Assembly (NCBI GenBank): GCA_001767495.1
Contig: MELA01000120.1
Coordinates: 1-50,334, forward strand
Reading direction: 5' to 3'
DNA length: 50,334 nucleotides
Source of the DNA: Acidobacteria bacterium RIFCSPLOWO2_12_FULL_65_11
GTDB lineage: Bacteria; Acidobacteriota; Vicinamibacteria; Vicinamibacterales; CAVVIG01
The notes under the pieces are model-generated. The model made no database searches and was not told the origin of the DNA. It was given only the letters and a program-made list of their open reading frames with translations. Shown here in pieces: positions 20,394 through 50,183 of the stretch (positions are counted from its first letter, which is position 1; each line of letters starts with the position of its first letter). Position numbers and translations under genes: made by a program.

Positions 20394-20636
20394 ATGCCCT
20401 TCGACATGTACGGCGACGTGATCCTGACCCGCGACGTCACCGAGCGCGGGCTCCGTGCCGGCGACGTCGGAACGATCGTGGAGCGCCACGTCGTGCCCGG
20501 TGTCCGCGATGAAGGCTACTCGGTCGAGTTCTTCGACATGACCGGCAACACGGTGGCCGTAGTCACGCTGTCGGCGAGTGCCCTGCGCCTGCCCACACCA
20601 GCCGATCGGCCGGCCGTGCGAGCTCTCAGCGCCTGA
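20394..20636 (+). CDS. DUF4926-like protein
   Basis: An 80-residue protein with the pattern D-V-x-L-T-R-D-x-x-E-x-G-L-x-A-G-D-V-G-T-I-V followed by GYSVEFFDMTGNTVAVVTL, which fits DUF4926, a small SH3-like beta domain. The gene begins 3 bp after the DUF6883-like gene and is surely co-transcribed with it. Such two-gene units of a roughly 110-residue and a 75-residue protein resemble toxin-antitoxin or effector-immunity pairs, but the function is not established. Confidence 0.7.
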   Translation: MPFDMYGDVILTRDVTERGLRAGDVGTIVERHVVPGVRDEGYSVEFFDMTGNTVAVVTLSASALRLPTPADRPAVRALSA

Positions 20637-32134: not shown

Positions 32135-33295
32135 CTACTCACTATAGCGATCTGAAAGGTCTCCAACTCTGGTGAGGGCGGCATCCCAGTTCTTGAACGA
32201 GGAAGGGAACGCCGCCAAGATCTGTGTCGCAATCTCCCCCGACGGCATCCGCTGATGCATGAGGTCGAGAATGCACCTGTCGATGCGCGCGGCTTCGTTG
32301 AGGCGTGGCACGAACGTATCCGCCCGCTTGCGCAACAGCTCCCGATTGGGTTGCGCCGCCAGCCAAGACGATTGCCGGTATGCGGCTTTCGCGCGCCCAG
32401 AGGCACCGTCCACTACCTGCGTGTCCCATCCCCACAGGTAGTCATCCTCGATGAGGTCGGCACGCAGATGGATCCGAACTTCATCGCCTGGCAAGAGCGC
32501 AATCGGATCGGGCCAGGCGAAGAACCCTTGCCCGTACACCAGCCGCTCGTGGGAGGCCGGCGAATTGGAAAAGCCGATCCCCGGCGCGGTCTCGGCGTCG
32601 AACCACACGCCGAATCCGTGGCCGACAGCGGCATGTTCGATCGTCCAGTTCATCGGACCGCTGACATTTGGCCCCTGGAGGCTGTCGTAATCCAACACGG
32701 CCCAACACTGCGGCTCGACGAGCAGATCGTCGGCATCCAGTCGCTGCCTGGACCACTGATTGGCTGCCCTGACGCGGACAGCCGAGAGATCGAACCCGTA
32801 TTCGGTGGTCCAGGCCTGAATGATGCGCTTATGGGCCGCGGTCGAGGAAGCCAGCGCGGCCCAGATCGTATCGCGCGCCGGCACGATCCAGCCGCCCGGT
32901 TTGAGCAGTCGCGATCGGGCGTCGACGACAGACACGAGGCTCCTGCCAAAAAGCGGCAGCGTGCCACGGATGTCCGCCACGATCCCATCGACGCGCTCGG
33001 GAAGAACGACGTCGGTCGTGACGGCCTGTACGAACTGGATGCGATCGGTGAATCCGTTGGCTGCCGCTACCTCCCTGGCCACCTGAATCACGTCGTCAGG
33101 CTCGACGGCATAGACGCGCGCGGCACCGGCACGACACGCCAGAAGCGCCAGGAAGCCTGGCCCGGTGCCGATGTCGAGCACGACCGACGAAGGGGTGATT
33201 CTCGCTTCGAGTGCGCGGGCGTAGGCTGAAACCCGCGTCGTGTCGGCGATCATGTCGCCGTAGTCGAGCAAGCCGTACACCGAGCTTCCACTCAC
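32135..33295 (-). CDS. SAM-dependent methyltransferase, PRMT-like
   Basis: A 386-residue class I methyltransferase. The GTG at 33295 overlaps the cyclase stop by 4 nt (GTGA) and gives VSGSSVYGLLDYGDMIADTTRVSAYARAL, the usual entry of the PRMT-like fold; the open frame further upstream is cyclase shadow. The SAM motif is VVLDIGTGPGFLALLA (41-47) with E65 in VYAVEPDD, followed by VDGIVADIRGTLPLF. It lacks the double-E loop of true arginine methyltransferases. The C-terminal half (about 190-386) is beta-rich and less conserved. Being coupled to the cyclase, it is a candidate tailoring enzyme for the lasso peptide, an unusual addition to kinase-type clusters. Confidence 0.82.
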   Translation of the reverse strand: MSGSSVYGLLDYGDMIADTTRVSAYARALEARITPSSVVLDIGTGPGFLALLACRAGAARVYAVEPDDVIQVAREVAAANGFTDRIQFVQAVTTDVVLPERVDGIVADIRGTLPLFGRSLVSVVDARSRLLKPGGWIVPARDTIWAALASSTAAHKRIIQAWTTEYGFDLSAVRVRAANQWSRQRLDADDLLVEPQCWAVLDYDSLQGPNVSGPMNWTIEHAAVGHGFGVWFDAETAPGIGFSNSPASHERLVYGQGFFAWPDPIALLPGDEVRIHLRADLIEDDYLWGWDTQVVDGASGRAKAAYRQSSWLAAQPNRELLRKRADTFVPRLNEAARIDRCILDLMHQRMPSGEIATQILAAFPSSFKNWDAALTRVGDLSDRYSE

Positions 33296-35205
33296 GAGGA
33301 GGATGCTCCGAAAAATCGCCTGAGCCACAGCTCCAGGCCTACCACGTCGCCAATCTGCCACGCCGGAAGCGCCGTATCTGCCCGAGCGATGCGCGTCTCG
33401 AAGGTCGTCAACTCTCTGGCCAGGCGGTCGCCGTCGACCAGGCCCGCCTGAACCGCTAAGGAATCTCGCGTCAGCAAGCGCAGGATAGCTGGATACTCCG
33501 ACACAATCGCCCGGTTGCCGGCGCCGGTAAAATCCGCCTTCCACCGGCGCTGGCGTATCGCGTCGGGCAGAATCCCCTGCATGGCGTGGCGCAACAACGC
33601 TTTAGGAACCCCGTCTCGATTGATCATGTCGCCGGGGATCGCCATCAAGAAGGCCACCAGGTCCCTGTCTCGGAACGGATAGGCGACCTCGAGGCCATGC
33701 ATGAGGCCAGTCGCATTGGACCGGTGGGTCTGCACCTGGCAAAATCCCGACGTCGCATTCCGGTAGAGCTGCTCCGCGTGGCTGCTCGCGAACTTCCGAT
33801 CAAGATTGGGCCGACTGAGCGAGCGCTCGATCGCACGCTCCAGGAACTTCGCGGTGTACCACGCCGGAAGTCTGCGCCTGAATCGCCGGCGCGAGGTTCG
33901 CTTCTTGACGAATCGAAACAGCCACCGAGGCGGTAGTGCCCGCACCAGCCTGCTCCGAAGCTGACGCCCGAAGAGGCCGGGCTCGACATCCGTCATCCAG
34001 GCGTCACACTCACGTAAGTGGCGCCGGACCATCAACCATCGTCCCCGACGAAACAGATCGACCAGATATGCCTGATCGGACAGGATCTGGTCTCCGAAGA
34101 ATCCGTCCAGAACGACGGTACATCCTGACTGCCGCGCGGTCGCCAACAGCACCGACTGAACATCCCACGTCAGGCCGGGCATTTCCATGTGCCAGATAGT
34201 CCGCTCCGCGTCGGTTAACAACCGGAGCGCCGAAACAGCCTGGCGAACGATCGGCAGGCCCGACGCCGTCTCGACCTGGTCCAGATACGCGACCTCGTCA
34301 GCCGCGGCGTTGCCGGGAAATGTCAGGGCGAAGCCGCGTAGCTCAGCCGGTGCGGCACCGCTCGTGATGAGCGCTCTGGCTTGACAGAAGATCGATGAGG
34401 AGTCGAGGCCGCCGCTGACCGACACGGCGACCGGACGATCGCTGCGCAGCCGGCGCCGGACCGACTCTGCAAACAGCGTGCGGAAGCATTGAGCGTAGTC
34501 CTCAAAGGATCGATAGCGAATCTCCCGCGCCGAATCGAAGTCCCAGTGTTGCCGGAGGACTCGCCCATCGGTTGTGACGATGAGGACGTGTCCGGGCGGC
34601 ACGCTGTACACGCCCTGAAAGCACGTCCGCGTGCCGTCGCTGTAGCCGTCGAGGACCAGGTCTGCGAGCGCGTCTTCGTCGGGGCGGGACCTGACCGCGC
34701 GGTGCGCAAGAAGGCTCTTGATTTCTGACGCGAACAACAACGTGCCCGGAAGCGGGCAATAGTACAGCGCGCGGGCGCCCATTCGGTCGCGAGCAAGCAG
34801 GAGGCGTCGGCGTGTCGAATCACACAACGCGAGAGCAAAGTCACCGTTCAGGCGAGCGACAAACGCTTCGCCAAATTGCGAGTAAGCGGCAAGCGCGAGC
34901 GCCGCATCGGAGCACACGGCCTCCGGCCAGCCAACGTTGGAAGGGCATGCATCGAGGACTTCCTGGCGGTTATCGAGGCGGCCGTCGAACGCGACGGCCG
35001 TGCCGGAGGGCGAGGTGAGGGGCTGACGCTCTGTCAGCGACTCGGGTGTGACCCGAGAATGCTGATGACCGATGCCGGCCGTCGAGCCGATCCAATAATC
35101 CTCACCATCGAGTGCGTGATGAGCGGAGGCCGCAGCGAGCCCTTTCAGCTCGGACGGCTCAACCGTGCGACCGTCCAGATTGAAGACACCGACAATACCG
35201 CTCAT
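33292..35205 (-). CDS. Lasso peptide cyclase (asparagine-synthetase-like, protein C)
   Basis: A 637-residue asparagine-synthetase B homologue, as expected for the ATP-dependent enzyme that adenylates the ring Asp/Glu and closes the isopeptide bond to Gly1. Residue 2 is Ser instead of the catalytic Cys of glutaminases (MSGIVGVFNLDG), so it cannot use glutamine, as in lasso cyclases. The PPi-loop SGGLDSS is at 264-270, and the C-terminal synthetase domain contains YPFRDRDLVAFLMAIPGDM and KALLRHAMQGILP, with the lysine in RQRRWKADFTGAG. It starts 46 bp after the precursor gene and is coupled to the methyltransferase. Confidence 0.92.
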   Translation of the reverse strand: MSGIVGVFNLDGRTVEPSELKGLAAASAHHALDGEDYWIGSTAGIGHQHSRVTPESLTERQPLTSPSGTAVAFDGRLDNRQEVLDACPSNVGWPEAVCSDAALALAAYSQFGEAFVARLNGDFALALCDSTRRRLLLARDRMGARALYYCPLPGTLLFASEIKSLLAHRAVRSRPDEDALADLVLDGYSDGTRTCFQGVYSVPPGHVLIVTTDGRVLRQHWDFDSAREIRYRSFEDYAQCFRTLFAESVRRRLRSDRPVAVSVSGGLDSSSIFCQARALITSGAAPAELRGFALTFPGNAAADEVAYLDQVETASGLPIVRQAVSALRLLTDAERTIWHMEMPGLTWDVQSVLLATARQSGCTVVLDGFFGDQILSDQAYLVDLFRRGRWLMVRRHLRECDAWMTDVEPGLFGRQLRSRLVRALPPRWLFRFVKKRTSRRRFRRRLPAWYTAKFLERAIERSLSRPNLDRKFASSHAEQLYRNATSGFCQVQTHRSNATGLMHGLEVAYPFRDRDLVAFLMAIPGDMINRDGVPKALLRHAMQGILPDAIRQRRWKADFTGAGNRAIVSEYPAILRLLTRDSLAVQAGLVDGDRLARELTTFETRIARADTALPAWQIGDVVGLELWLRRFFGASSS

Positions 35206-35251
35206 CTACCCCATTCAAGCACGCAACTGGCGGCGCTGGGGCGGCGCTCCA

Positions 35252-35407
35252 TCAGATCCTTGACATGTTTGTTGCGCCGTCACCCATGACACCGCCGGTT
35301 CCCTGAACGATGTCTTTCACGTGGCCGTAGGAGACCAAGCGGGGCTTGGCATAGGGTTTTCTGGCGCCGGGTGCCCTTCGATCGACCGACTTGTCTGTTG
35401 CACTCAT
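35252..35407 (-). CDS. Lasso peptide precursor (A), 51 residues
   Basis: The ATG at 35407 is preceded by GGAGGATTCG, an excellent ribosome binding site. The 35-residue leader ends with KPYAKPRLVSYGHVKDIVQ, which has the YxxPxLxxxG recognition motif of lasso leaders. The predicted core is GTGGVMGDGATNMSRI: Gly1 can be joined to Asp8, giving an 8-residue ring and an 8-residue tail. The usual Thr at leader position -2 is replaced by Val. The gene lies between the kinase and cyclase genes. It is short and embedded in a longer frame, hence easy to miss. The core borders are inferred, not observed. Confidence 0.85.
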   Translation of the reverse strand: MSATDKSVDRRAPGARKPYAKPRLVSYGHVKDIVQGTGGVMGDGATNMSRI

Positions 35408-35423
35408 CGAATCCTCCGTGCCC

Positions 35424-36416
35424 TCACGCAGTTCTCCTGCAAGGCTCCTTCTCGACAACGGTCTGCCGGACATGCTCGACGATGGCGTTGCGCAACGCCG
35501 GAAGGTGCTGCAGCCCTCCTGGATACCGCAACTCGAAACCGATCGCCTCGGAGGCCACTTGCGTCGCAAACGCGAACTGCCTTGCGAGACGTTCTCTGTG
35601 AAGAATGGTTGTGGTGAAGCTGCTCTTGAGTAGTTCTCTGACCATCGCCACGCGCGATATCGAGCGTATTTCGAACGAGCGAGTACGGTTCCGTTCGTCG
35701 GGTTCCGGCAGGACGAACAGGCGCCGCAGCGGCAGGCTGTCCGGCTGCCGAGCGGCCGCCGTGAGCGGAAACGACCGTTTGGTCGCCGTTGGCGTCAGTG
35801 GGGTGCCGCGCGCGGGACTGTCCCAGAACGTGCCGGCGCTATCCGGCATGAGCTTGACGCGCCCCGACCCAGGATGCGCAACGAGATTCCCACTGCGTCG
35901 CTCAAGTATCAACATGTCGTCGGTGACGACCTGGTGGCCTTCCTGAAGAAAGGCCGCCAGCAGAGTCGATTTTCCGAATCCACAGTCGCCGAGAAACGCC
36001 ACCGCCCAGTCATCCACGCGCACGGCGGCGGCGTGCAGCGGCTCGATCCCCTGCTGGACGAGTGCCACGGCAAGCGCCTGTCCGAACAGGAAGTTCTGCA
36101 GCACCGCGCGGGGGCAGTCGTTGAGCGGCCGATACACGACGCACGAGCCATCCGCGGCGACACGAAATTCGTACAAATGTTCCCAACGCAGGTAGGTGGT
36201 GCCGTCTGCCGGACGTGGACGGACCACCCATTCATCGGCGGACGGCTGCTCGCACGCAGAAGGCTCGAAGTCTTCGGCGGTACCCTCCACGAACTCCACG
36301 TCGGCTAGTAGCTGCTGTCCGTCGTGCGCCCTTGGGAACGCAAACCGATGGTCGCTGGTTACTCGAACGCCGTAGATCGAGTAGTGATACCGCTCGGGAC
36401 ACTGGCGTGGCTTCAT
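35424..36416 (-). CDS. HPr-kinase-like lasso peptide kinase
   Basis: A 330-residue protein; ATG 36416 overlaps the B2 stop (ATGA). Residues 125-170 hold the HPr-kinase core: EPLHAAAVRVDDWAVAFLGD, P-loop GDCGFGKS (143-150, K149), and VVTDDMLIL with D166/D167. The N-terminal HPrK regulatory domain is absent and replaced by about 110 residues typical of the paeninodin-type kinases, which phosphorylate the C-terminal serine of their precursor. In the adjacent precursor the only core serine is the third residue from the end (Ser14), so the site would differ, or another residue is used. It ends 16 bp before the precursor gene. Confidence 0.88.
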   Translation of the reverse strand: MKPRQCPERYHYSIYGVRVTSDHRFAFPRAHDGQQLLADVEFVEGTAEDFEPSACEQPSADEWVVRPRPADGTTYLRWEHLYEFRVAADGSCVVYRPLNDCPRAVLQNFLFGQALAVALVQQGIEPLHAAAVRVDDWAVAFLGDCGFGKSTLLAAFLQEGHQVVTDDMLILERRSGNLVAHPGSGRVKLMPDSAGTFWDSPARGTPLTPTATKRSFPLTAAARQPDSLPLRRLFVLPEPDERNRTRSFEIRSISRVAMVRELLKSSFTTTILHRERLARQFAFATQVASEAIGFELRYPGGLQHLPALRNAIVEHVRQTVVEKEPCRRTA

Positions 36417-36847
36417 GCGAAAAGGCTGTCCCATACCGTCAGTGGCGCGTACTGGTCGGCCGTCGAGCCGCCTATCACAATGCGGTCCCGATCGGCGAGC
36501 CAGGCGTGTGACTGAAGACGACCGCCCGGCTCGTATCTGACGCCGACAGTCAGCCGCAACGGTCGTTCGGGCGATCCCAACGCCAGGTCCGCCACGATCG
36601 CCCTCACGAGACAAGTACTCACGCCCGCGAGCCGGCGGCCGCTGGCTTCGATGGCCCAAATCACCCGCGCCTCAGGCCCACGCAGGATGAAATGCGCGAG
36701 CAACCGCAGCCGCGCTGCCCCTCTACGCAAGGTCGGCAGCGACATGGTCCGGAGGCCGAACGCTGTCAGGACTTGGACAAGGGACGCGGCAATCAAGAGT
36801 CTCCAGTCCGAGGCGGTCAGCGACAGCCAGCGTGTGAATCGGTTCAT
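36413..36847 (-). CDS. Lasso peptide leader peptidase (B2, transglutaminase-like)
   Basis: A 144-residue protein of the lasso B2 family (transglutaminase-like cysteine protease that removes the leader). The catalytic cysteine is C79 in GVSTCLVRAIVADLAL, the histidine H114 in SHAWLADRDRIVIGG, and the aspartate D119 or D121. The N-terminus (WRLLIAASLVQVLTAFGL) is the usual amphipathic or hydrophobic helix. It is the first gene of the minus-strand operon and overlaps the kinase gene by 4 nt. B1 is encoded separately, so this is a split-B system. Confidence 0.9.
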   Translation of the reverse strand: MNRFTRWLSLTASDWRLLIAASLVQVLTAFGLRTMSLPTLRRGAARLRLLAHFILRGPEARVIWAIEASGRRLAGVSTCLVRAIVADLALGSPERPLRLTVGVRYEPGGRLQSHAWLADRDRIVIGGSTADQYAPLTVWDSLFA

Positions 36848-36964
36848 CGTAGAGCTCGGGAGCCCATGGTACGCGCCGGGCGCGCGCGTGTAAAGGCGCC
36901 GGCGTCGCGCCCAGTCGCCGCCCCAGATGCTGCTATGACGCGTGTGGGCGACCTGCTGACCGTC

Positions 36965-37046
36965 GGATTATCGTCCACAAGTCGCCGAGCAGGCGCCGTA
37001 GAACATAGTCCGTGGACCAGCTGCAGCCAAGTCCTCACACTTGGTC
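36965..37046 (+). promoter_or_regulatory. Conserved regulatory region before the second precursor gene
   Basis: Three blocks recur exactly and in the same order and direction upstream of the small ORF at 42886-43008: GGATTATCGTCCACAA (36965-36980, containing the inverted pair GGA/TCC), CATAGTCCGTGGAC (37004-37017, with a possible -10 CATAGT) and AGTCCTCACACT. The last block is the centre of an inverted repeat CCAAGT/ACTTGG (37027-37044) that ends 4 bp before the ATG. The region lies between the divergent B2 operon and the second precursor gene, so it may control both. Function is inferred from conservation only. Confidence 0.65.
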
Positions 37047-37048
37047 TC

Positions 37049-37474
37049 ATGAATCGCCCCAACACGCCAGCCAACTCCGGGCTGCCGACCCAGCGAAAGC
37101 CGTATTCAAAACCGCGCCTGATCTGTTACGGCCACGTGAAGGACATCATTCAAGGTGGCGGAGGCATGATGAATGACGGTGGAGGTGTCATGTCGCGGGG
37201 GTGCTGGATCGCCGAAGCGATCTACGGCGAATCCGACCCACGGACCACGCTGCTTCGCGCCTGGTTGACTCGGGTGTACGACGAGCGGTGCCGGTGGTGG
37301 TTTCTCGTCAGCGTCTACCGGGTCTGTGGGCGCAGGGTGGCCGGCTTGATCCGCAGCGGGTGCGTCCCTCGGGGGCTGTTCGTTCCGCTGTTCGACTATC
37401 TCCTGATCCAGGCGAACGACGACACCGCTCGCCTGCTCAGACGAGGCTCCTACCTGCCTGGCCGTGTTTCCTGA
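37049..37474 (+). CDS. Second lasso-type precursor fused to a CFI-box-like C-terminal domain
   Basis: A 141-residue protein from ATG 37049. Residues 17-35 (KPYSKPRLICYGHVKDIIQ) match 15 of 19 positions of the lasso precursor leader, and the ring region GGGGMMNDGGGVMSRG starts at residue 36, with D43 at ring position 8, exactly as in the other precursor. Instead of stopping after ...MSR it runs on: GCWIAEAIYGESDP, a hydrophobic helical stretch (WFLVSVYRVCGRRVAGLI) and GLFVPLFDYLL. This tail resembles the CFI-box domain (CFIATAAYG followed by an LR.FRD helix). It is divergent from the lasso operon. No Shine-Dalgarno is visible; a hairpin abuts the start. The 3' end overlaps the convergent pilX-like gene by 25 bp. 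Confidence 0.75.
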   Translation: MNRPNTPANSGLPTQRKPYSKPRLICYGHVKDIIQGGGGMMNDGGGVMSRGCWIAEAIYGESDPRTTLLRAWLTRVYDERCRWWFLVSVYRVCGRRVAGLIRSGCVPRGLFVPLFDYLLIQANDDTARLLRRGSYLPGRVS

Positions 37475-40400
37475 GAAAAGCCCAGCGTGTTCAGGTCGCG
37501 AAATACCGGCGTGAGCGGCGGCAGAAGCGCCGGATTGAGAAAGTCGACGTCGAACGAATACGCGCGGGTCGGCGCTCCGTACACCGTCGTGCAGCACTTG
37601 TAGATACCGATGGCCTGCCGGGCGTAGTAGAAGCTGGCCAGCGACCCCCTGTAGTTCAGGGTTCCGCCCTCCTCGAGGAACCGCAGGAAGTTGTGCACGC
37701 CGCCGTCGGTGCCGAAATCGCTCGCGACAGGCGCCCAGGCCGGGAGCTGAAACGACGGATTCTTCCCGGCGATGACCGCTACGCGATAGTAGCTCTGGGC
37801 AGGGCGATCGCGCTGCGTGCGGTCGTACGGATTCGCAAACGAGTACGTCGTGTCGTTCCAGTTGCTGCTGAGCAGCGTCACCGCGTCGGCCGCAACGGAG
37901 GTCGCGACGTGTGGCTGGTTCCACGTGGCGTTCATGCCCAGCGCACGGGCGTTCCAGTTCCCGTGGATGTAGACGGGGGTTTCCGCGACGATCGCCAGAC
38001 CGGGCGCGACGATGTCGGGGATGGCGTCACCATCGTCACCGTTGATGAGCTTGAGCGCCCGCCTGAACAGGATGGCGCGGTTCACCTGCGCCTGGCCGCG
38101 GTTAACCGCCGTCGTCGGCCGGGCGTTGAGATCGAGCGGCGCCGCGGCCCCCGGCGGCACGCTATTGGCCGTGCCGTTGTAGCTTGGCAGCCGCCCGTAC
38201 AGGTCGAGGAGCCCATTCGCGTTGACATCCTCGGGAGAGACTGTTGATGGAGGGACGGGCGGTTCGAGCGCGTTGTCTTCTGCGCCGTTCTGGTTCGCCC
38301 GGTTCATGATGTCTTCCCAGCCGAACTCGCCCGTTTCCAGGCTGTTCGCGTCGCGATTGTTCCGCCGGTCCGAGAAGTAGACGGCGTAGCCCGTCCCGAG
38401 ATTGTTGAGCGCCTGCGTGCCGGTTCCGGCGTTGTAAGGCGCCACGCCGGTGAGCCATCGCGACAGGTTTCTCACGTCGAGCGCGACGTAGTGCATCACG
38501 CCGCCGAGCCTGAGGCCGAGCACGCCCGTACCCGGGCCTGGATTCGTGTCGCGCTGCAGCGCCTCACGTGGATCGAATAGGACGTTGGGCCAGTAGTCTC
38601 TGGAGTCCAGGCTGGTCGTACCCGTGGGTACGCCTGCGACGGTTACCGTGCTGTACGCGCAGCCATTTGCGGGGAAACCCGCGCCGACACCTCCGTTGTC
38701 CTTGAGGCGCTGGATTCGCAGGATCGCATTCAATGTCGGATCGTCACAAATCTGGCCCGCCAGATTCGGTCCACCGATCCCGTAGTTCAGGATCTCCATC
38801 GTCACGTCGGTCCACACGTTGGCGTTGTCCTGCATCTCGATCTTGATGAAGCCGCCAATCGTGCTCGTGCCAGCCGCGGATAGAGAGTTGTTGGTAATTG
38901 TCGAGTTCGCGGCAATTGCCTGCGTGTTGCCCTGACAGTTCAGAAGCTGGTCGTTCAAGGCGGGGGCAGTGGTATAACCGGAGCACGAGATCAATTGCAC
39001 GCGGTTGTTCGCCGCATCGGTCACCCAGAAAGTTGTGGGAGCGAACGCAGCCGTGCTGACCACGCGGAGATCGGCGCTGGCACTCAACACCGTGGCGTTG
39101 GTCGTCGCTGTCGTGGGGGAGTAAGCGGCGTAGAGGGGAGCTGCTGCGGGCAGAGACACGATACTTCCTGCGGCCGATACCGGCGTAATGCAGCCGGTGA
39201 ATCTGTCAGCCAGTCTGCCGGTGCATACCACGTCGACCCCGTTGAGTTTGAGGATGGGCGGGATCTGAAACTCGAGCGGAAGGATGCCGTTGACGGTAAT
39301 CGTGGTCCCGGCTGCCGCCACGAGGGCGTTGACCGTCGTCGTCGCAGGACCCTGCGTCGTCGCAATCGGCGGATGCGTCGCATCAACCGGACCGTACGGC
39401 GTGCCATTGTTCGGTGGCGCGTTGTTCCAGTTGCCGTCGAGTGACACCGGCGGCGTCGCCGTCACCGTCGGCAGATTGGTGATGTCAGCCGCCGCGTCCG
39501 ACAAAAGGATCCGCAGACTCGCCTTGCTGAAGTAGCGCTCGCCGAAGAGCAGCGGATTGACGACGTTCTCGTTGGCGGCCGGCCGGCGCACGATGTCCGG
39601 GTTGGCTCCACCGGAGGTCAGCACGGCCAGGTTCAGGGGTCTGGCGCCAGTCGCACCATTCCGGATGTATCCGTTGTACGACGTAAGCGAAATGTTCGTC
39701 CACGCCGGGTTCGCCGGGCTGCCGAGGAATCCCTGGAGGCTGCCCTCGGTGGCCAGGAGATCCCGGCAGGCGCCGGCAGCGGCAGGGCATCCCGGCGCTC
39801 TGGGGAGACGCACGATCCCATCGTGCGTAGCCGGCAGCGTAATCGCTGCGCTGTTCGACATGTTCTGACGGATGACCTCCCCAACAGCTGTCATCCTGTC
39901 GTTAAACGCCAGGTTAGACGCTGCGGGCCCCGCAAGGAACAGATTGCCGTTGGTGTGCACCCGGCCGCCAAAGTTGAAGTTGGGACCCGGAAAGAAGCTC
40001 AAGTCGGTGTCCGAGAAGACTCCGAACTGGAAGACCGGGATCGCCACGGTCTCGAGACTGCGCCTCAGGTGGACTTCGCCTCCCGAGGCCGTGAGGGCCG
40101 TCGACTCCAGCGTGTACTGCGTGAGGAGCGCAATCAGTCCCTGGTACGGACCGGACGAGATCGTCCGCGCCGTTCCCCGCGGATTGCCGTTGGCATCCGA
40201 CAGCGCCCACGCGACGGCATAGCCGGTGTTCCCAGGGGGAAACGTGACGCTGGGAAGTACCGGCGGGGCGGCCGTCAAGGCGTTGATTTGCGCCGCCGTC
40301 GGGGCGTAGTTGGTCCGAAAGAAGTTGCCCAGATCGGCCGTCAGCTTCTCGAGTCCGGCGTGCGCGGCGTAGAAGGCCTCTTGACGATCGCGGTCGACAC

Positions 40401-40539
40401 TGCGGAACCGCTGATCGCTCATGACCGACGCCGTGAAACCGACAAGGAGCGCCGACACGAGTGCCGTCACCAGCAAGACGGTAATCAGCGCGATGCCGCG
40501 TTCATTGGCTGGACGCATGGGATTTGCCATTCCTTTCAT
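37450..40539 (-). CDS. PilX-like minor pilin assembly protein, very long
   Basis: A 1029-residue protein with a PilX-type N-terminus: ERGIALITVLLVTALVSALLVGFTASV is a class III-like prepilin or membrane-anchor helix, followed by DRQEAFYAAHAGLEKLTADL, the usual PilX_N continuation. Ordinary PilX is about 200 residues; here some 850 residues of beta-rich, Asn/Thr/Gly-rich sequence are added, probably an extracellular adhesive or structural part. It contains paired cysteines (for example QLISCSGY and QLLNCQGN). The start ATG 40539 overlaps the PilW stop (ATGA). It is last in the operon, where pilY1 is often found. Confidence 0.85.
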   Translation of the reverse strand: MKGMANPMRPANERGIALITVLLVTALVSALLVGFTASVMSDQRFRSVDRDRQEAFYAAHAGLEKLTADLGNFFRTNYAPTAAQINALTAAPPVLPSVTFPPGNTGYAVAWALSDANGNPRGTARTISSGPYQGLIALLTQYTLESTALTASGGEVHLRRSLETVAIPVFQFGVFSDTDLSFFPGPNFNFGGRVHTNGNLFLAGPAASNLAFNDRMTAVGEVIRQNMSNSAAITLPATHDGIVRLPRAPGCPAAAGACRDLLATEGSLQGFLGSPANPAWTNISLTSYNGYIRNGATGARPLNLAVLTSGGANPDIVRRPAANENVVNPLLFGERYFSKASLRILLSDAAADITNLPTVTATPPVSLDGNWNNAPPNNGTPYGPVDATHPPIATTQGPATTTVNALVAAAGTTITVNGILPLEFQIPPILKLNGVDVVCTGRLADRFTGCITPVSAAGSIVSLPAAAPLYAAYSPTTATTNATVLSASADLRVVSTAAFAPTTFWVTDAANNRVQLISCSGYTTAPALNDQLLNCQGNTQAIAANSTITNNSLSAAGTSTIGGFIKIEMQDNANVWTDVTMEILNYGIGGPNLAGQICDDPTLNAILRIQRLKDNGGVGAGFPANGCAYSTVTVAGVPTGTTSLDSRDYWPNVLFDPREALQRDTNPGPGTGVLGLRLGGVMHYVALDVRNLSRWLTGVAPYNAGTGTQALNNLGTGYAVYFSDRRNNRDANSLETGEFGWEDIMNRANQNGAEDNALEPPVPPSTVSPEDVNANGLLDLYGRLPSYNGTANSVPPGAAAPLDLNARPTTAVNRGQAQVNRAILFRRALKLINGDDGDAIPDIVAPGLAIVAETPVYIHGNWNARALGMNATWNQPHVATSVAADAVTLLSSNWNDTTYSFANPYDRTQRDRPAQSYYRVAVIAGKNPSFQLPAWAPVASDFGTDGGVHNFLRFLEEGGTLNYRGSLASFYYARQAIGIYKCCTTVYGAPTRAYSFDVDFLNPALLPPLTPVFRDLNTLGFSQETRPGR

Positions 40540-41621
40540 TGGTAGCGATCCACAAACGCGAGACTTCTGATGCTGACGCTGGTCTGCATGTGATTGCGCA
40601 GGAAGTCGTTCGACTGCGTCGACACCACGTCGGAGCGCACGCCGATGTGGAGATTGACTTTACGAACCTGATTGGCCGAGTACGTGACGCCGTTCAACAC
40701 AAAGGGAAACGTCACGACTCCCGTCGGGTTCGTCACGCCGTCGACCAGGTCGTAGGCAATGTCGAGGTCCTCGACGACCCCGGCCAGCGCCTGTGGCGTG
40801 CCGAAGTTCCACACGCGCGTCAGCCGCGGCGTCCCAGGCGCGGTCACCGCGTCAACGTAGTAGGTCAGCATGATCACACGCGTCACCAGGCCCTGCGGCA
40901 TGGGATTGTCGACGATCTGGGTCACCGAGCCCTGGGCGGCGACCGGCTGATTCAGGTTGAACCTGTCAATCGGGTCCGCCACATCGAAGAAGATGGTGTT
41001 GGGATTGGTGCGCGTCACCGTCTGCAGCGTGCTGCCGTTGGCGTTGCTGATCCACAAGAGATTACCTGGCGCGACCGGGAAGACGCCGTTCAGCGGGTCG
41101 CCGGCAAACCACGCGGCGTTCCCACCGATGTTGATGCTCGACCCGTCGGCCGCCAGGGTCGCCTGGCCGGCGAGCCCGGTGTTGATCGACAGCGGCGCGA
41201 GCAGGGGGTCGGTCATCAGGATCGTGATCATGTCGGTCGTCGCGCCAGCGATCACCGGACCCAGCCCCGCCCCCGCGATGAGCGCCGGCAATACGTCCGA
41301 GTTGACGTTGTCGAACGAATAGTTCAGTCCGGGCGGACTGGGACGACTGATCGCCTGCGAGCCGGCGCCGGACGGAATCGGAATGCCGCCGGTCGGGATC
41401 CCGCGCGCGGCCTGCAGCAGGTCGCGAATCAGGAGGTTGGTGCCCGCGCGCAGGTTCTGGTTCGCGTCGACCAGCTGCGTGGTCGCCTGGTTGAGGTTGA
41501 CCGCGCTTATGAAGGCGGACATGGCTCCGCCGAGCGCCATCAGCACGATTGCCGTGCTGATGAGCAACTCCGGGAGCGTAAAGCCCTCCTCGCGCGACAT
41601 GGGTGCCATGACCTGCCTCAT
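40536..41621 (-). CDS. PilW-like minor pilin
   Basis: A 361-residue prepilin. The ATG at 41621 overlaps the PilV stop (ATGA) and yields a short leader ending in SREEG followed by FTLPELLISTAIVLMALGG, with cleavage between G and F and the conserved glutamate at +5. The rest is the globular PilW part, larger than the average. A longer frame to 41675 exists but would put an implausible leader in front. It works in priming type IV pilus assembly together with its neighbours. Confidence 0.9.
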   Translation of the reverse strand: MRQVMAPMSREEGFTLPELLISTAIVLMALGGAMSAFISAVNLNQATTQLVDANQNLRAGTNLLIRDLLQAARGIPTGGIPIPSGAGSQAISRPSPPGLNYSFDNVNSDVLPALIAGAGLGPVIAGATTDMITILMTDPLLAPLSINTGLAGQATLAADGSSINIGGNAAWFAGDPLNGVFPVAPGNLLWISNANGSTLQTVTRTNPNTIFFDVADPIDRFNLNQPVAAQGSVTQIVDNPMPQGLVTRVIMLTYYVDAVTAPGTPRLTRVWNFGTPQALAGVVEDLDIAYDLVDGVTNPTGVVTFPFVLNGVTYSANQVRKVNLHIGVRSDVVSTQSNDFLRNHMQTSVSIRSLAFVDRYQ

Positions 41622-42175
41622 GCGAAATTCGAGACGTAGGTGACCAGCGTGTAGCGGCGCGTGGCTCCGCCCCACTGGAACGTAATTTCGACCGTTATCG
41701 ACCGTAGGTTCGGCTGGATGTCGCGAATCTGGATCTCACGCGTATAGCCGTCGAGCGTGACGGTCTGGTTGTCGAACGGCGTCAGGAGGTTCTGGTCTGG
41801 ACCGGGAAGCTCGACGCTCTCGATCGGCTGCGCGGCGTCGTCGGTGGTGTTGACGAGGGCGTCGGTGCCAGCCAATCTGAGCGGCTGCGGGCCGTCGAGG
41901 AAGATACCGCCGTCCTGGCCGGACGCGCCTGCGACATTGCGGATCTGCGCCCACGTCAGAACGTGTGAATCGCGGGCGGCGAACACGCTCTCGATCGCTT
42001 CGGCGGCCTTTTGTGTCGCGGTGAGATCGCCCGGCGAACTCGAGACGAGCTGCAGACCAACGCCAAGAACGCCGGCGGCACCGAGCACGCAGACCGTCAA
42101 CAGAGAGACAGCGATTAGCGTCTCGACAATCGAAAATCCGCGCTCGGAGCGAAGCAGTACGCGATGTGGTTTCAT
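41618..42175 (-). CDS. PilV-like minor pilin
   Basis: A 185-residue prepilin starting at ATG 42175 (MKPHRVLLRSERG then FSIVETLIAVSLLTVCVLG), with the processing site between G and F and E at +5. The globular part ends in RRYTLVTYVSNFA. The start lies 2 bp downstream of the FimT-like stop. The order FimT-PilV-PilW-PilX is the standard minor pilin operon. Confidence 0.9.
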   Translation of the reverse strand: MKPHRVLLRSERGFSIVETLIAVSLLTVCVLGAAGVLGVGLQLVSSSPGDLTATQKAAEAIESVFAARDSHVLTWAQIRNVAGASGQDGGIFLDGPQPLRLAGTDALVNTTDDAAQPIESVELPGPDQNLLTPFDNQTVTLDGYTREIQIRDIQPNLRSITVEITFQWGGATRRYTLVTYVSNFA

Positions 42176-42177
42176 GG

Positions 42178-42729
42178 CTACACGACGGTCCATTGACCAC
42201 CATCCCACCGGTATGCCCGTACGCGGCCGGTTCCGCCGAGGACGGTGATCGCCCGGAACGACCGAGGCTCGTTCGGAAGCGCAACAAAGATAGTCCCGTT
42301 GAGCGGATTGCCCGACTGATCGATGAGCGTCCCATCGCTGTTGAAGAGGATTCTGAGGGACGCGCCAAAATCGGTCGGCGTGCTGTTGCCAAAATTTAAG
42401 GGCGTGTCGATAACGCCGTTGATGAGCGCGTACTGCACGCCGCCTTCGAAGACGACCATCGACACGACCGTCGCGCCGGCCGGCACCTCCTGCCGGACGA
42501 CTTGCAGCTGATCGGTGCCGATGAACTGCAGCTCCATCTGACGGCGCTGTGTGATCGCCATCTCGCGCGCCAGATTGAGCTGGCCCATGATGACGCGCAT
42601 GGCGCCGTCGCCTGTCATGTAGGGCCGGGCCTGCCCGATCTGGATGACGGCGATGCTGCTCACGACACCGATGATGCCCGCCGTCACGAGCATTTCGAGG
42701 GCGCTGTACCCGGCCTCACCAGATCGCAT
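42178..42729 (-). CDS. GspH/FimT-like pseudopilin
   Basis: A 183-residue prepilin: MRSGEAG then YSALEMLVTAGIIGVVSSIAVIQI, cleaved after G with Tyr rather than Phe at +1 and E at +5. The globular GspH domain shows the conserved helix LNLAREMAITQRRQMELQF and ends with AYRWDGGQWTVV. It is the first gene of the minor pilin operon; the promoter should lie in 42730-42885. Confidence 0.9.
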   Translation of the reverse strand: MRSGEAGYSALEMLVTAGIIGVVSSIAVIQIGQARPYMTGDGAMRVIMGQLNLAREMAITQRRQMELQFIGTDQLQVVRQEVPAGATVVSMVVFEGGVQYALINGVIDTPLNFGNSTPTDFGASLRILFNSDGTLIDQSGNPLNGTIFVALPNEPRSFRAITVLGGTGRVRAYRWDGGQWTVV

Positions 42730-42885
42730 GGCGTAACCTCTCGATGAGGACGATGGTCATCATCCATTCCGTTGCCGTGAATCCGTTGTGGTCTTGAAGG
42801 TGCGCGCGCTGTGCCGTAAGGCTACGGCCGGGATGAACGGGCATCGAAAGCGTCGCGACTCAGACTGCAAAGCCGGAGCCAGCGA

Positions 42886-43008
42886 TCAGGCGCATCGCCA
42901 ACCAAGGCGCGAAACCGACTTCAGGTGAATTACGTCGAACGCAGCTCCGCCCACGTGCTCCAATTCGGGTCGCGCGATTACAGAAGCGTCGGAACGGCGG
43001 GCGTCCAT
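42886..43008 (-). CDS. Small ORF behind the conserved regulatory region, possible degenerate lasso precursor
   Basis: A 40-residue frame starting at ATG 43008. It is placed behind the second copy of the regulatory region just as the second lasso precursor is placed behind the first. It contains RPELEHVG, which fits the PxLxxxG part of lasso leaders, at a similar distance from the start, followed by GAAFDVIHL where the known leaders have HVKDIIQ. No Gly-x(6)-Asp core follows. No ribosome binding site is visible. It may be a decayed paralogue or just chance coding; treat as doubtful. Confidence 0.3.
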   Translation of the reverse strand: MDARRSDASVIARPELEHVGGAAFDVIHLKSVSRLGWRCA

Positions 43009-43020
43009 TTCTTGTTCTGC

Positions 43021-43103
43021 AACGCCCAAGAGTGTGAGGACTGGGGCGTGATTCGTCCACGGACTATGCTCCACGGAAATCTGATGATTGTGGACGATAA
43101 TCC
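43021..43103 (-). promoter_or_regulatory. Second copy of the conserved regulatory region, beside the XRE gene
   Basis: On the minus strand the blocks GGATTATCGTCCACAA (43088-43103), CATAGTCCGTGGAC (about 43057-43070) and AGTCCTCACACT (about 43030-43041) recur with spacings close to those at 36965-37046. The last block again sits in an imperfect inverted repeat with CCCA/TGGG ends. The first block, extended by one base, is TGGA-N6-TCCA and directly touches the -35 box of the XRE gene, as an operator would. Confidence 0.65.
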
Positions 43104-43104
43104 A

Positions 43105-43135
43105 TTGACGATCTGTCCCCGAGGGCCGCTATGAT
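43105..43135 (+). promoter_or_regulatory. Promoter of the XRE regulator gene
   Basis: TTGACG (43105-43110) and TATGAT (43130-43135) with a 19-bp spacer form a good sigma-70-type promoter. Transcription would start near 43142, at the first possible ATG, so either the message is leaderless or translation begins at the ATG at 43163. Confidence 0.6.
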
Positions 43136-43141
43136 TGCGCC

Positions 43142-43504
43142 ATGCGCAGGTCTACTCACCCCATGTTAAGGACGATAGGCGTGACAATCCGATCTTGTCG
43201 GCGTCAGAAAGGGCTGTCGCAGGAGGCGCTTGCGGATCTGGCTCGTATCGATCGCTCGTACATGTCGAGCATCGAGCGCGGGCTTCGGAACGTCTCGGTG
43301 CTCAACGTCGCCCGGATTGCGGTCGCGCTGCAGGTACCGCTCTGCGATCTGCTGCAGGCCAAGAGCACATGGCCACCTCGGGAATCCGATCGGATGAGCG
43401 TCGCCTTTAGGGGACCGGCCGAACGGCCTCGCCTGCGCGGGCATGGGCCGCACCGCGCCGAGGGATTCGACTGGGAGCTAGGCCGGTCCTTGTCGCTCGG
43501 CTAG
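43142..43504 (+). CDS. XRE-family transcription regulator
   Basis: A 120-residue protein (113 from the alternative start at 43163). The helix-turn-helix is typical: IRSCRRQKGLSQEALADLARIDRSYMSSIERG, followed by LNVARIAVALQVPLCDLL. The C-terminal 45 residues are basic and unstructured-looking, with no ligand or peptidase domain. The TGGA-N6-TCCA palindrome immediately upstream of its -35 box is a candidate autoregulatory site, and the same 16-mer occurs before the second lasso precursor gene. It may therefore control the lasso locus; this is inference. Confidence 0.85.
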   Translation: MRRSTHPMLRTIGVTIRSCRRQKGLSQEALADLARIDRSYMSSIERGLRNVSVLNVARIAVALQVPLCDLLQAKSTWPPRESDRMSVAFRGPAERPRLRGHGPHRAEGFDWELGRSLSLG

Positions 43505-43516
43505 TGGACTTCGTCT

Positions 43517-44104
43517 TCAGCGCCCCTCCGCCGGTGAGGGCCGGCCCCAGCGGGTATCGAGGATCGCCCAGAGGTACTGGTCCACGTAGTGGCCGTCTCG
43601 CCAAAAAGCTTCGGTCAGCGTCCCTTCGCGAATGGCGCCGAGCTTGCGTAATGCCGCGTTCCCCCGATCGTTGTCGACGGCGGCGCGCGCTTCAACCCGG
43701 TGAACTTTCACCACGCGGAAAGCGAAATCGAGCACGAGCCGCACGCTGTCGTCAAACACGCCGGTACCCCAGAGCCGAGGCGCGATGACGAAGCCGAGTT
43801 CGCCTCGAAGAAATCCCGGTTGAAGCTGGCGCAGCTCGAACACTCCGCACGCGTGTTGCTCGCCGCGCGGGACCACGCCGTAGCAGATGTACTTGCCAGT
43901 GGCGCGTTCGCCCCGGGCCCATCCGATGAAATGTTCAAACGCCAGCGCGCTCGCGGGTGGCGCCCACATGAAGCGCGTCACCTCGGGCGTGGTCAGTTCC
44001 ACGAACAGCGTGTCCGCGTCGGACTCTCGAAGCTCGCGCAGCGTCAGGCGTTCGCCAATCAGGTCCGGGAGTCCGGTGCGCCAATCAATCGACGGGCTCG
44101 CCAT
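43517..44104 (-). CDS. GNAT family N-acetyltransferase (RimJ/RimL-like)
   Basis: A 195-residue acetyltransferase from ATG 44104 (MASPSIDWRTGLPDLIGERLTLREL). The acetyl-CoA site is ELGFVIAPRLWGTGVFDDSVRLVL and the closing part is NDRGNAALRKLGAIREGTL. The start overlaps the end of the subtilase gene by 20 bp, so expression may be coupled. The frame can be extended upstream, but there it only mirrors the VWG repeats of the subtilase. It is a paralogue of the GNAT at 11935-12546. Substrate unknown. Confidence 0.87.
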   Translation of the reverse strand: MASPSIDWRTGLPDLIGERLTLRELRESDADTLFVELTTPEVTRFMWAPPASALAFEHFIGWARGERATGKYICYGVVPRGEQHACGVFELRQLQPGFLRGELGFVIAPRLWGTGVFDDSVRLVLDFAFRVVKVHRVEARAAVDNDRGNAALRKLGAIREGTLTEAFWRDGHYVDQYLWAILDTRWGRPSPAEGR

Positions 44105-45710
44105 TACCCCAGACGATGGTGTCATCCCACTCGAAGTTGCCCCAGACGATGGTGTCGTCGCCCAAGTCGAAGTTGCCCCACACGATCGTGTCGCTCCAGT
44201 CGATGTTGCCCCATACGATCGTGTCAAGATACTCGTCGGCGCCCCAGACGAAGGTCTGCGACCATTTCCAGCTCTCGCCACCAATCGTCGTCGCTGGCGC
44301 GAGCAGGTCGGCAGGCGACCAGTTCCCCAGCGGCACAGGAAGAGCGACAACCTGCGCCAGCGCAACAGCTCCTGACGCGTTCAAAGCGCCGCGACCCTGC
44401 GTGAGCGGGTCGACGCCGTCCAGCAGCAACGCGGTGTACTGCAGGATCGCCTTGATGGCAGCGGGCGGAAGACCCGTGCCATGAGTCGCGCGGCTCGCTT
44501 CAATCATCAGCGCCACCACACCGCTCGTCACCGCCGCCGACATGCTCGTGCCGCTCAATCGGAAGAACTGCGCCACATTCCCCTTCGCGGTAACCTGCCG
44601 GTCGGGGAACTGCGTAAACAGCGCTCCCGCCGGCGCCGCATCCGACACCAGGTTCTGGCCGGGTGCCACGATGTCCGGCTTGACGAGCCCGTCGTACCAG
44701 CTCGGCCCGCGCGAACTGTACGAGGGAATCGCATCGTCGCCCCGCTTCGTCGTGTTCTTCGTGTCGACGGCGCCGACAGTGATCGCGGAGGGGGCGTTAC
44801 CCGGGCTGAGAATGCCAGCATAGCCAGGCTGTCCTGTGACAACACTGCGTCCGACGTTCCCCGCAGAGACGACGACCACGATGCCCGCACCGACGGCGGC
44901 CTCGACCGCTTGCACCAGCGGATCGCTGCGACCGGGCTCCAGAATTGGGTGGCCGAGCGATAAGTTGATGACGTCGACTCCGAGCGTCTGCCGGTTGGCC
45001 ACCGCAAACTCGATGGCCTCGATGACCGTGCTCGTCAGCCCCCATCCCTGCGCATCGAGCACCTTCAGACTGATGATGCGGGCCCCGGGCGCGATGCCCT
45101 GGTAGGGCGCGCCCGCCGAGTTCTGCGACAGCGCACCCCTGCCCGCAATCAGTCCGCTCACATGGGTCCCGTGCCCATGGTCGTCGTTGGCGTACGGACC
45201 GAATCCGCCGGTGAAATCGTAGATGCTGACGCCGGTGAAGTCTCCGTTCCGGTCGATACCCGAATCGATCACCGCGACGCCAACGCCCCTGCCGGTCAGT
45301 CCGTTCATCGGCAAGCCGAGCGTCGAAAGCAGCGTGTTCTGGACGCTCTCTGCATCGGACGCCTTGTCGGCATTGTGCAGGACGGGGGCGTCGAGCGAGA
45401 TGCTTTCAACATCGGCGTCGTTCTCAAGGACTGAGATCTCGTCGCTTGACACCGAGGCCGTGACGGCCTCGACAATCGCGTGCTTCTTCAAGATGGATCC
45501 GCCGCGCTGCTGGAGCCGGACGGCCAACGAGCCCGAAGCGCCAGGTCGAGTCCGCACGATCACTCTGATCGGTCCGCTCGCGCCGCGACGAAGGGCGGCG
45601 TCCAGCTTGGAATGGTCGGGGGGTTGCGCCGCCCGGCCAGCCGCCTGGGCACCGAGGAAGACAGCAACCGCCGCGATGGCACACGAGACGAACTTCTTAT
45701 TCAACGACAT
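44085..45710 (-). CDS. Secreted subtilisin-like serine protease with C-terminal VWG repeats
   Basis: A 541-residue S8 protease from ATG 45710 (GGAG stands 11 nt upstream; a GTG at 45722 is an alternative). The signal peptide is MSLNKKFVSCAIAAVAVFLGAQAAG. An I9-like propeptide (about 30-110) is followed by the catalytic domain with D149 (VAVIDSGID), H180 (HGHGTHVSG) and S389 (LSGTSMSAA). The end is a run of VWG repeats (four DTIVWGN plus one TFVWG), found in related subtilases of acidobacteria; their role, perhaps in anchoring or secretion, is unknown. A CTATAGTCCGTGG motif lies about 65 bp upstream. Confidence 0.93.
   Translation of the reverse strand: MSLNKKFVSCAIAAVAVFLGAQAAGRAAQPPDHSKLDAALRRGASGPIRVIVRTRPGASGSLAVRLQQRGGSILKKHAIVEAVTASVSSDEISVLENDADVESISLDAPVLHNADKASDAESVQNTLLSTLGLPMNGLTGRGVGVAVIDSGIDRNGDFTGVSIYDFTGGFGPYANDDHGHGTHVSGLIAGRGALSQNSAGAPYQGIAPGARIISLKVLDAQGWGLTSTVIEAIEFAVANRQTLGVDVINLSLGHPILEPGRSDPLVQAVEAAVGAGIVVVVSAGNVGRSVVTGQPGYAGILSPGNAPSAITVGAVDTKNTTKRGDDAIPSYSSRGPSWYDGLVKPDIVAPGQNLVSDAAPAGALFTQFPDRQVTAKGNVAQFFRLSGTSMSAAVTSGVVALMIEASRATHGTGLPPAAIKAILQYTALLLDGVDPLTQGRGALNASGAVALAQVVALPVPLGNWSPADLLAPATTIGGESWKWSQTFVWGADEYLDTIVWGNIDWSDTIVWGNFDLGDDTIVWGNFEWDDTIVWGNGEPVD
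44094..44255 (-). repeat. VWG tandem repeats in the subtilase gene
   Basis: Five units of 11-12 codons, each centred on (D)TIVWGN, with variable acidic or aromatic spacers (IDWS, FDLGD, FEWD). The DNA repeats are imperfect (recurring GACGATGGTGTC and CCCCA on the plus strand), which could allow unit gain and loss. Confidence 0.85.
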
Positions 45711-46030
45711 AACGTTTCGCACTCCATACGTAGGCGTGTGGAGCGGTAATCGTACGGCACGGCCGCCCTTTAACCACGGACTATAGTCAACAGACCCGTT
45801 GTCGCCCTGAGGACAGACTTCTGCTCATGGCTTCTGGATTCCCCGACGGCACACGCCGGCCCTCCTCGCTTCCGTGGCTCTATCTGCAGGGAATGCTAAC
45901 TGGGGCGCCGAAGTGGTTTCGGCTGCGAGGGTGGGCTATCCGAGAGCGTGGCAGGCCGGAGCACCGGCGGGCAGCCCGATGAGCGGGCGGTGTTGGGCGC
46001 AGGTCCGGCGCATCAAGCGCAGCAGAGAAT
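45711..46030. other. Intergenic region upstream of the subtilase
   Basis: About 320 bp without a convincing gene; frames across it are shadows. It holds CTATAGTCCGTGG on the minus strand (45774-45786), identical in 11 positions (ATAGTCCGTGG) to the middle block of the two regulatory regions at 37 and 43 kb and starting like a -10 box (TATAGT). It should contain the subtilase promoter and the end of the flavoprotein transcript comes from the other side. Confidence 0.45.
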
Positions 46031-50030: not shown

Positions 50031-50183
50031 GTCCGGCTAAAGCCGGACACTACGACGGATGGCGTCGCGGCCGGCTTTGGCCGGCCGGAAGTCCGCCTGA
50101 AGCCGGACACTACAGCGAACTGGCGTAGTGTCCGGCTTCAGCCGGACCGTGAACTGGCGTAGTGTCCGGCTTCAGCCGGACCG
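50031..50183. repeat. Cluster of at least five palindromic repeat units
   Basis: Units GTCCGGCTAAAGCCGGAC (50031), GGCCGGCTTTGGCCGGCC (50070-50087), GTCCGCCTGAAGCCGGAC (near 50091) and two inverted copies of GTAGTGTCCGGCTTCAGCCG (from 50125 and 50159) that form a 34-bp direct repeat with GTGAACTGGC between them. The cluster fills the space between fcl and the carbamoyltransferase gene and supplies the latter's stop codon. Confidence 0.85.

Follow-up and report, generated by a model that had tools for sequence, protein, structure and literature searches.

In a 50,334-nt stretch of contig MELA01000120.1 from an Acidobacteriota bacterium (the window), a three-block intergenic element occurs twice in inverted orientation, once beside the gene of an XRE-family regulator and once at a lasso-peptide cluster. 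We consider it likely that the element is a bidirectional promoter carrying one C-box-type operator per direction, with the 120-amino-acid (aa) XRE regulator, a relative of the controller (C) proteins of restriction–modification (R-M) systems, as the predicted binder. An XRE dimer would bind a palindrome (consensus KGAC-kATm-GTCC) one nt 5′ of the −35 hexamer and recruit sigma-70 RNA polymerase through its SQE helix, thereby activating its own leaderless gene and a divergent pilin operon, and, from a third operator, a subtilase gene. A second bidirectional promoter at the lasso cluster would place a fused precursor gene (predicted to be leaderless), and perhaps the operon headed by B2, under the same protein. 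What the sequence itself shows is that the sites exist, how they are spaced relative to promoter-like hexamers, that they are conserved and that they co-occur with the XRE gene.

The preliminary description of this DNA had reported three exact blocks, in the same order, at two inverted places, and all of them are there: block 1 at 36965–36980 (+) and 43103–43088 (−), block 2 at 37004–37017 (+) and 43068–43055 (−), and block 3 at 37030–37041 (+) and 43042–43031 (−). The element is somewhat shorter than had been drawn, with block 3 stopping at 37041 and 43031 instead of 37046 and 43021. Block 1 does lie beside the XRE −35 box, from which a single nt separates it. Searches over the 3.55-Mb genome of the same bacterium found block 1 and a 13-nt core of block 2 exactly at these two places only (block 3 was scanned in the window), and not at many unrelated loci, on which ground the element is not regarded as a dispersed repeat or an insertion sequence. 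The next-best genomic matches to block 1, with 2 mismatches, fall at three places, all within long open reading frames (ORFs), and the window holds no further site with up to 3 mismatches (shuffles average 0.13). Taken singly and with mismatches tolerated, blocks 2 and 3 do not reach significance in the window. A lone shared 16-mer is not rare in 50 kb, and the window contains many 16-mer repeat events, so the evidence resides in the collinear triple, which amounts to 42 matched nt, whereas across 30 Markov-randomised windows no collinear inverted match exceeded 26 nt; the real window's own maximum is 47 nt, which may be another repeat. Outside the blocks, similarity between the copies is at background (4/12 in the spacer between blocks 2 and 3, 17/60 upstream and 14/60 downstream), and the copies are therefore not a recent duplication. 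Elsewhere in the window, short inverted or repeated sequences are common to 16009–16142 and 50121–50168 and possibly form a dispersed repeat family.

Both copies of the element, and the third operator, can be laid out as follows.

43088–43103 (+): block 1, XRE copy; operator GGACGATAATCC at 43092–43103, then A, then the −35 TTGACG at 43105–43110
43130–43135 (+): putative −10 TATGAT of the XRE gene, 19 nt past the −35 and 6 nt ahead of the ATG, a leaderless layout; identical spacing in genome G012
43054–43072 (−): block 2, XRE copy; operator GGAGCATAGTCC at 43072–43061, then G, then the −35 TGGACG at 43059–43054; faces the pilin operon
43031–43042 (−): block 3, XRE copy; terminates in the −10 CACACT at 43036–43031; the G012 counterpart is GATACT at equal spacing
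36965–36980 (−): block 1, lasso copy; operator 1, GGACGATAATCC, at 36965–36976 read on the minus strand; faces the B2 operon
37000–37018 (+): block 2, lasso copy; operator 2, AGAACATAGTCC, at 37000–37011, then G, then the −35 TGGACC at 37013–37018
37030–37041 (+): block 3, lasso copy; terminates in the −10 CACACT at 37036–37041, 17 nt past the −35 and 7 nt ahead of the precursor ATG
45771–45789 (−): third operator, TGACTATAGTCC, at 45789–45778, then G, then TGGTTA; 5′ of the subtilase gene

The promoter alignment is regular, with the −35 located one nt past the operator in every row. The XRE promoter of G012, a genome of the same family as the source, reads GGACGATCGTCC, TTGACG, 19 nt, TATGAT, 6 nt and GTG. 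The gap between the −35 and −10 is 19 nt at XRE in the window and in G012, and 17 nt at both pilin promoters and at the fused precursor; as judged from sequence, the −10 sits 6–7 nt 5′ of the start codon in G000, G012 and G121. Read in the other direction from XRE, block 2 is a second site that ends in ATAGTCC and is followed by G and then by TGGACC or TGGACG as the −35. A GT follows the palindrome at the pilin, precursor, subtilase and G012 promoters, and AT takes its place at the window's XRE promoter. The distance between the two operator centres is 31 bp at XRE, 35 bp at the lasso cluster and 36 bp in G012, while the operator-to-promoter spacing is constant. Because the former varies and the latter is fixed, two back-to-back promoters fit better than one cooperative complex, and the element would thus be a divergent promoter with two C-box-type operators, one per direction. 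A short GCCCAAGAGTG stretch is also found between operator 2 and the pilin genes, both in the window (43025–43042) and in G012 (L010 near 2015), in opposite orientations.

A peptide-sized ORF had been described beside each copy. This holds for the lasso copy, where the fused precursor follows, but comparison with pieces of G012 (the syntenic genome), G014, G002 and L071 gave no convincing relative of the two small ORFs beside the XRE copy. A conserved peptide gene at the XRE copy was accordingly rejected: one weak match (8.8e-4) overlaps the L071 subtilase operator and so probably reflects operator DNA, and the other (8.1e-4) lies elsewhere on the G012 contig.

The regulator, encoded at 43142–43504 (+), has 120 aa, a Pfam HTH_3 domain and a GLSQE motif. 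The top two of its 27 PDB matches are C.BclI (2.6e-14) and C.AhdI (2.4e-12). It resembles the C proteins of type II R-M systems (C.BclI, C.AhdI, C.PvuII and C.Esp1396I) in the sequence of its helix-turn-helix and in the SQE motif, located in helix 2 (GLSQEALAD), and its gene is preceded by a palindrome similar to the operator OL. The layout in part recalls C-boxes, with a near-palindromic operator just 5′ of the C-gene promoter, a GT after it at the promoters other than the window's own XRE promoter, and a gene predicted to be leaderless. Unlike those systems, the window palindrome is one bp shorter than GACT-tat-AGTC, no second operator (OR) was recognised over the XRE promoter in the window, the protein carries a C-terminal extension of ~45 aa, and its predicted targets are subtilase, pilin and lasso genes. 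Its neighbours encode a GNAT protein, a subtilase and pilins, not a restriction enzyme and methylase, neither of which was matched in a PADLOC scan of the 31 window ORFs (a scan limited to the window). Since no such gene is linked in the window, the regulator is filed as C-protein-like, not as the C protein of an R-M system.

To place it in its wider family, 80 XRE relatives from genome contigs were considered, with 71 upstream and 71 downstream neighbour ORFs scanned. Some neighbours match restriction enzymes of the PvuII, DraIII, MamI and ScaI types or DNA methylases, and others match integrases, conjugation proteins and transposases; this mixture indicates that the wider family takes in true C proteins and others. 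In the regions upstream of L070–L149, other recognition helices pair with other conserved operators, such as RSYMSSIERGGQN with GGAAGATCGTCCGTGGTG in Burkholderiales-type records and RSHMGKIERGERN with GGGTCGTAAATACCGTGG in sphingomonad-type records, and this pairing is a possible recognition code for C-like proteins.

The preliminary description had proposed that the XRE protein binds a TGGA-N6-TCCA palindrome linking its own gene to the lasso region, and it is still the best candidate binder; similar sites precede the genes of its closest relatives, and the sites do link the two regions. In those relatives, from other genomes, a palindrome near GGAC-kATm-GTCC lies ~50 nt before the start codon, and XRE relatives in other phyla have related palindromes in the same position. 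A palindrome within 2 mismatches was present at 9 of 91 loci (6 distinct sequences) versus none of the downstream control segments, a count that is descriptive and not independent, as five of these sequences had served to define the motif. Five of the six distinct sequences carry the recognition helix of the window protein, and the sixth, L086, carries another; conversely, all five lineages with the helix RSYMS(S/G)(I/V)ERG(L/V)RN have an operator-type palindrome ~50 nt before the start.

As an independent test, the XRE-upstream motif was scanned against the window and against pieces of G012 and L071, and in all three it returned a site before the subtilase gene. This third operator, absent from the preliminary description, is thus conserved in three genomes. 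Across the whole of G012, sites with 0–1 mismatch to KGACKATMGTCCRTKGAC are confined to the subtilase, XRE and pilin promoters, and in the window genome those with 1–2 mismatches comprise XRE, pilin, subtilase and one site within an ORF. Elsewhere, 2-mismatch genome sites of block 1 or of the operator consensus fall within long ORFs (L003, L004, L005 and L153), for which reason no wider regulon is claimed. A match to the bipartite pattern in G046 was taken as chance, its spacer and flanks being unlike those of the other cases.

Site presence was also compared across loci, using the 30 best-scoring GspH loci and the 30 best-scoring subtilase loci of the order, where 51 and 94 of 162 genomes, respectively, had a match. 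Among subtilase loci the site was found in 3 of 3 with an XRE gene and in 0 of 27 without (best 4–8 mismatches), where L221 lacks upstream sequence, L223 and L230 have part only, and L218 falls just short of all of it. Among GspH loci it was found in both of those with an XRE gene in the locus and in none of the 28 others (best 4–7 mismatches). Site presence is, in these loci, associated with the XRE gene and not with the pilin or subtilase genes.

The genes flanking and separating the two copies are listed below.

44085–45722 (−): subtilase (peptidase S8), Pfam PF00082 at 2.2e-45, with TIVWGN-type C-terminal repeats
37450–42729 (−): pilin-type operon with GspH-like, PilV-like, PilW-like and long PilX-like genes; Pfam and NCBIfam matches weak, below or near cut-offs, with synteny in G012
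37049–37474 (+): fused lasso-type precursor, with leader/core and a C-terminal CWIAEAIYG-type domain; convergent with PilX; G014 and G002 contain relatives
36866–36894 (−): separate sigma-70-like promoter TTTACA-17-TACCAT just before B2; 9/12 matches, shuffles mean 0.0
33292–36847 (−): lasso operon of B2 (36413–36847), HprK-like kinase, unfused precursor (35252–35404) and asparagine-synthase-type cyclase (33292–35205)

G012 keeps the order subtilase, GNAT, XRE, element and GspH-PilV-PilW-PilX, with one copy of the element at the same place. No lasso gene was found in the first 34 kb of its 43-kb contig, and the fused precursor has no match in this genome. This synteny without lasso genes suggests that the element belonged to the XRE locus first; the lasso copy is most likely derived, a view based on the single syntenic genome that has the entire element. 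In L071, apparently from G121, a genome placed in the window's own order, the subtilase, GNAT and XRE genes lie together, with a tRNA-Leu gene before XRE and a GspH relative ~7 kb away. Tandem TIVWGN-type repeats at the end of the subtilase recur in the G012 and L071 relatives. The pilin operon had been treated as a bystander spanned by the regulon. That view does not fit the arrangement, in which the operon is divergent from XRE and has its own operator and −35/−10 hexamers, an organization kept in G012 with no lasso genes in 34 kb. Among other window ORFs, the one at 20578–21336 matches the PADLOC candidate defence family PDC-S31 (2e-72), and weaker mad2 and SduA matches were also obtained.

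As in lasso clusters with an HprK-like kinase, the window contains B2, cyclase, kinase, precursors and a PqqD-like gene; the B2 peptidase, cyclase, PqqD-like B1 and precursor that identify a lasso cluster thus occur in it together. B2 matches lasso_biosyn_B2 above cut-off (5.9e-15). For the cyclase and the PqqD-like B1, lasso models score below NCBIfam cut-offs, with Asn_synthase and PqqD above Pfam cut-offs. The fused precursor matches NCBIfam lasso_cyano only below cut-off, and its C-terminal CWIAEA.YG domain has no Pfam match and no NCBIfam match above cut-off. In the relatives G014 and G002 the precursor is present only in fused form, inside a B2-kinase-precursor-cyclase operon, and there is neither a close XRE relative nor an operator site before B2 or the precursor. 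The window, unlike them, has an unfused precursor in the operon and a second, fused precursor that is divergent and would be expressed from an XRE-type bidirectional promoter. Among the other genomes searched, none turned up that combines a close XRE relative with the fused precursor. Because the geometry of blocks 2 and 3 is kept, with the ATG 7 nt past CACACT, XRE control of the fused precursor is plausible, and we lean towards it. The earlier proposal that XRE governs the lasso genes is weakest for the B2 operon, where operator 1 lacks a −35 and a promoter-like sequence lies nearer B2, and control of that operon is somewhat doubtful.

That XRE binds the sites, with which sign it regulates and whether the lasso genes respond are predicted here from sequence. 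According to PMC4824078, the C-box of C.PvuII-like systems comprises two GACT-tat-AGTC operators and a central GT, the C transcript is leaderless, OL mediates activation and OR repression, and the SQE motif contacts sigma-70. C proteins are described in PMC12707154 as activating at low level and repressing at high level, with some acting by repression; from both sources, an operator upstream of the −35 combined with SQE, and with no second operator over the promoter, is the activating arrangement in the C proteins studied. The self-repression suggested in the preliminary description agrees poorly with the window, in which the operator lies one nt 5′ of the −35 and no second operator was recognised over the promoter. 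By operator placement, the SQE motif and the absence of a recognised second operator, XRE probably activates rather than represses.

The opposite or a mixed sign, by which XRE would repress itself and the other promoters or activate at low and repress at high level, is the less likely outcome. C proteins are capable of both, some repress only (according to PMC12707154), and a dimer bound next to the −35 could hinder polymerase, but the features just named point the other way. We also regard it as unlikely, to a similar degree, that the XRE copy alone is functional, a promoter duplication having left the lasso copy behind as a relic, with the lasso genes using their own promoter. The TTTACA-17-TACCAT sequence before B2 and the state of the lasso operators, operator 1 without a −35 and operator 2 with an eroded left half, are consistent with a relic; 42 nt identical in three blocks amid spacers and flanks at background level suggest instead selection on both copies. 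Recognition of the blocks by another factor or a special sigma factor, XRE being merely one target, is improbable. The blocks include promoter hexamers and XRE binding is predicted from sequence, yet the site follows the XRE gene from locus to locus, and related palindromes stand in the same position before XRE genes of other phyla. That the copies are recombination sites flipping the pilin segment (phase variation) is very improbable: they are inverted and flank the pilin operon, but G012 carries a single copy in the corresponding position, the sequence can be read as a pair of promoters, and no recombinase gene was noticed beside either copy, although no search was aimed at recombinases.

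Several observations weigh against the bidirectional-promoter model as a whole. At the lasso copy, operator 1 is intact but is followed by no clear −35 (ACGGTC, 1/6), and operator 2, with its eroded left half-site, scores 3 mismatches, equal to dozens of other genome sites. The pilin and precursor promoter hexamers are weak (−35 4/6, −10 3/6), and a general promoter scan recovers neither these promoters nor that of XRE. The identity of block 3 runs 6 nt beyond the −10, for which the promoter model offers no explanation. Finally, in G121, a genome with XRE, a site precedes the subtilase gene but not the GspH gene, which argues against a fixed regulon.

Parts of this arrangement have precedents. 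According to PMC5282649, HsdC of Mycoplasma gallisepticum, a C-protein homologue, also binds promoters that lie beyond its own operon (clpB and a tRNA cluster); unlike the window XRE, it heads a type I R-M operon, uses a direct-repeat site and has no synteny with the extra targets. BswR of Pseudomonas aeruginosa (PMC3985676) is an XRE regulator whose DNA-binding fold resembles that of C proteins, and deleting it affects genes for type IV pili, flagella and biofilm, but it acts via the small RNA rsmZ at a different palindrome and does not control neighbouring pilin genes as a local regulator. A C-protein homologue with extra targets and a C-protein-like regulator affecting pili are thus already known. 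Searches of the open literature (subscription papers being mostly outside their reach) that combined C proteins with pili or regulons, or XRE regulators or type IV pili with lasso peptides, listed no C-protein-type regulator that is linked to a subtilase and pilin locus and has a copy of its bidirectional promoter at a lasso precursor; a search for C proteins outside R-M systems likewise returned nothing.

The role for which C proteins are known is the timing of restriction enzymes. In the window, by contrast, chromosomal genes unrelated to restriction appear to be under a C-protein relative, which seems to have acquired a lasso-peptide target via a second promoter copy. It is conceivable, and we put this forward tentatively, that an R-M-type controller without linked restriction genes evolved into a self-activating switch governing a surface or competition programme (subtilase and pilin operon), and that duplication of its entire bidirectional promoter placed a lasso peptide under this control as well, which may be bistable. 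The locus would then offer a compact, testable case of a selfish-element switch rewired to host functions, and supplying one 120-aa protein is a candidate trigger for the lasso cluster.

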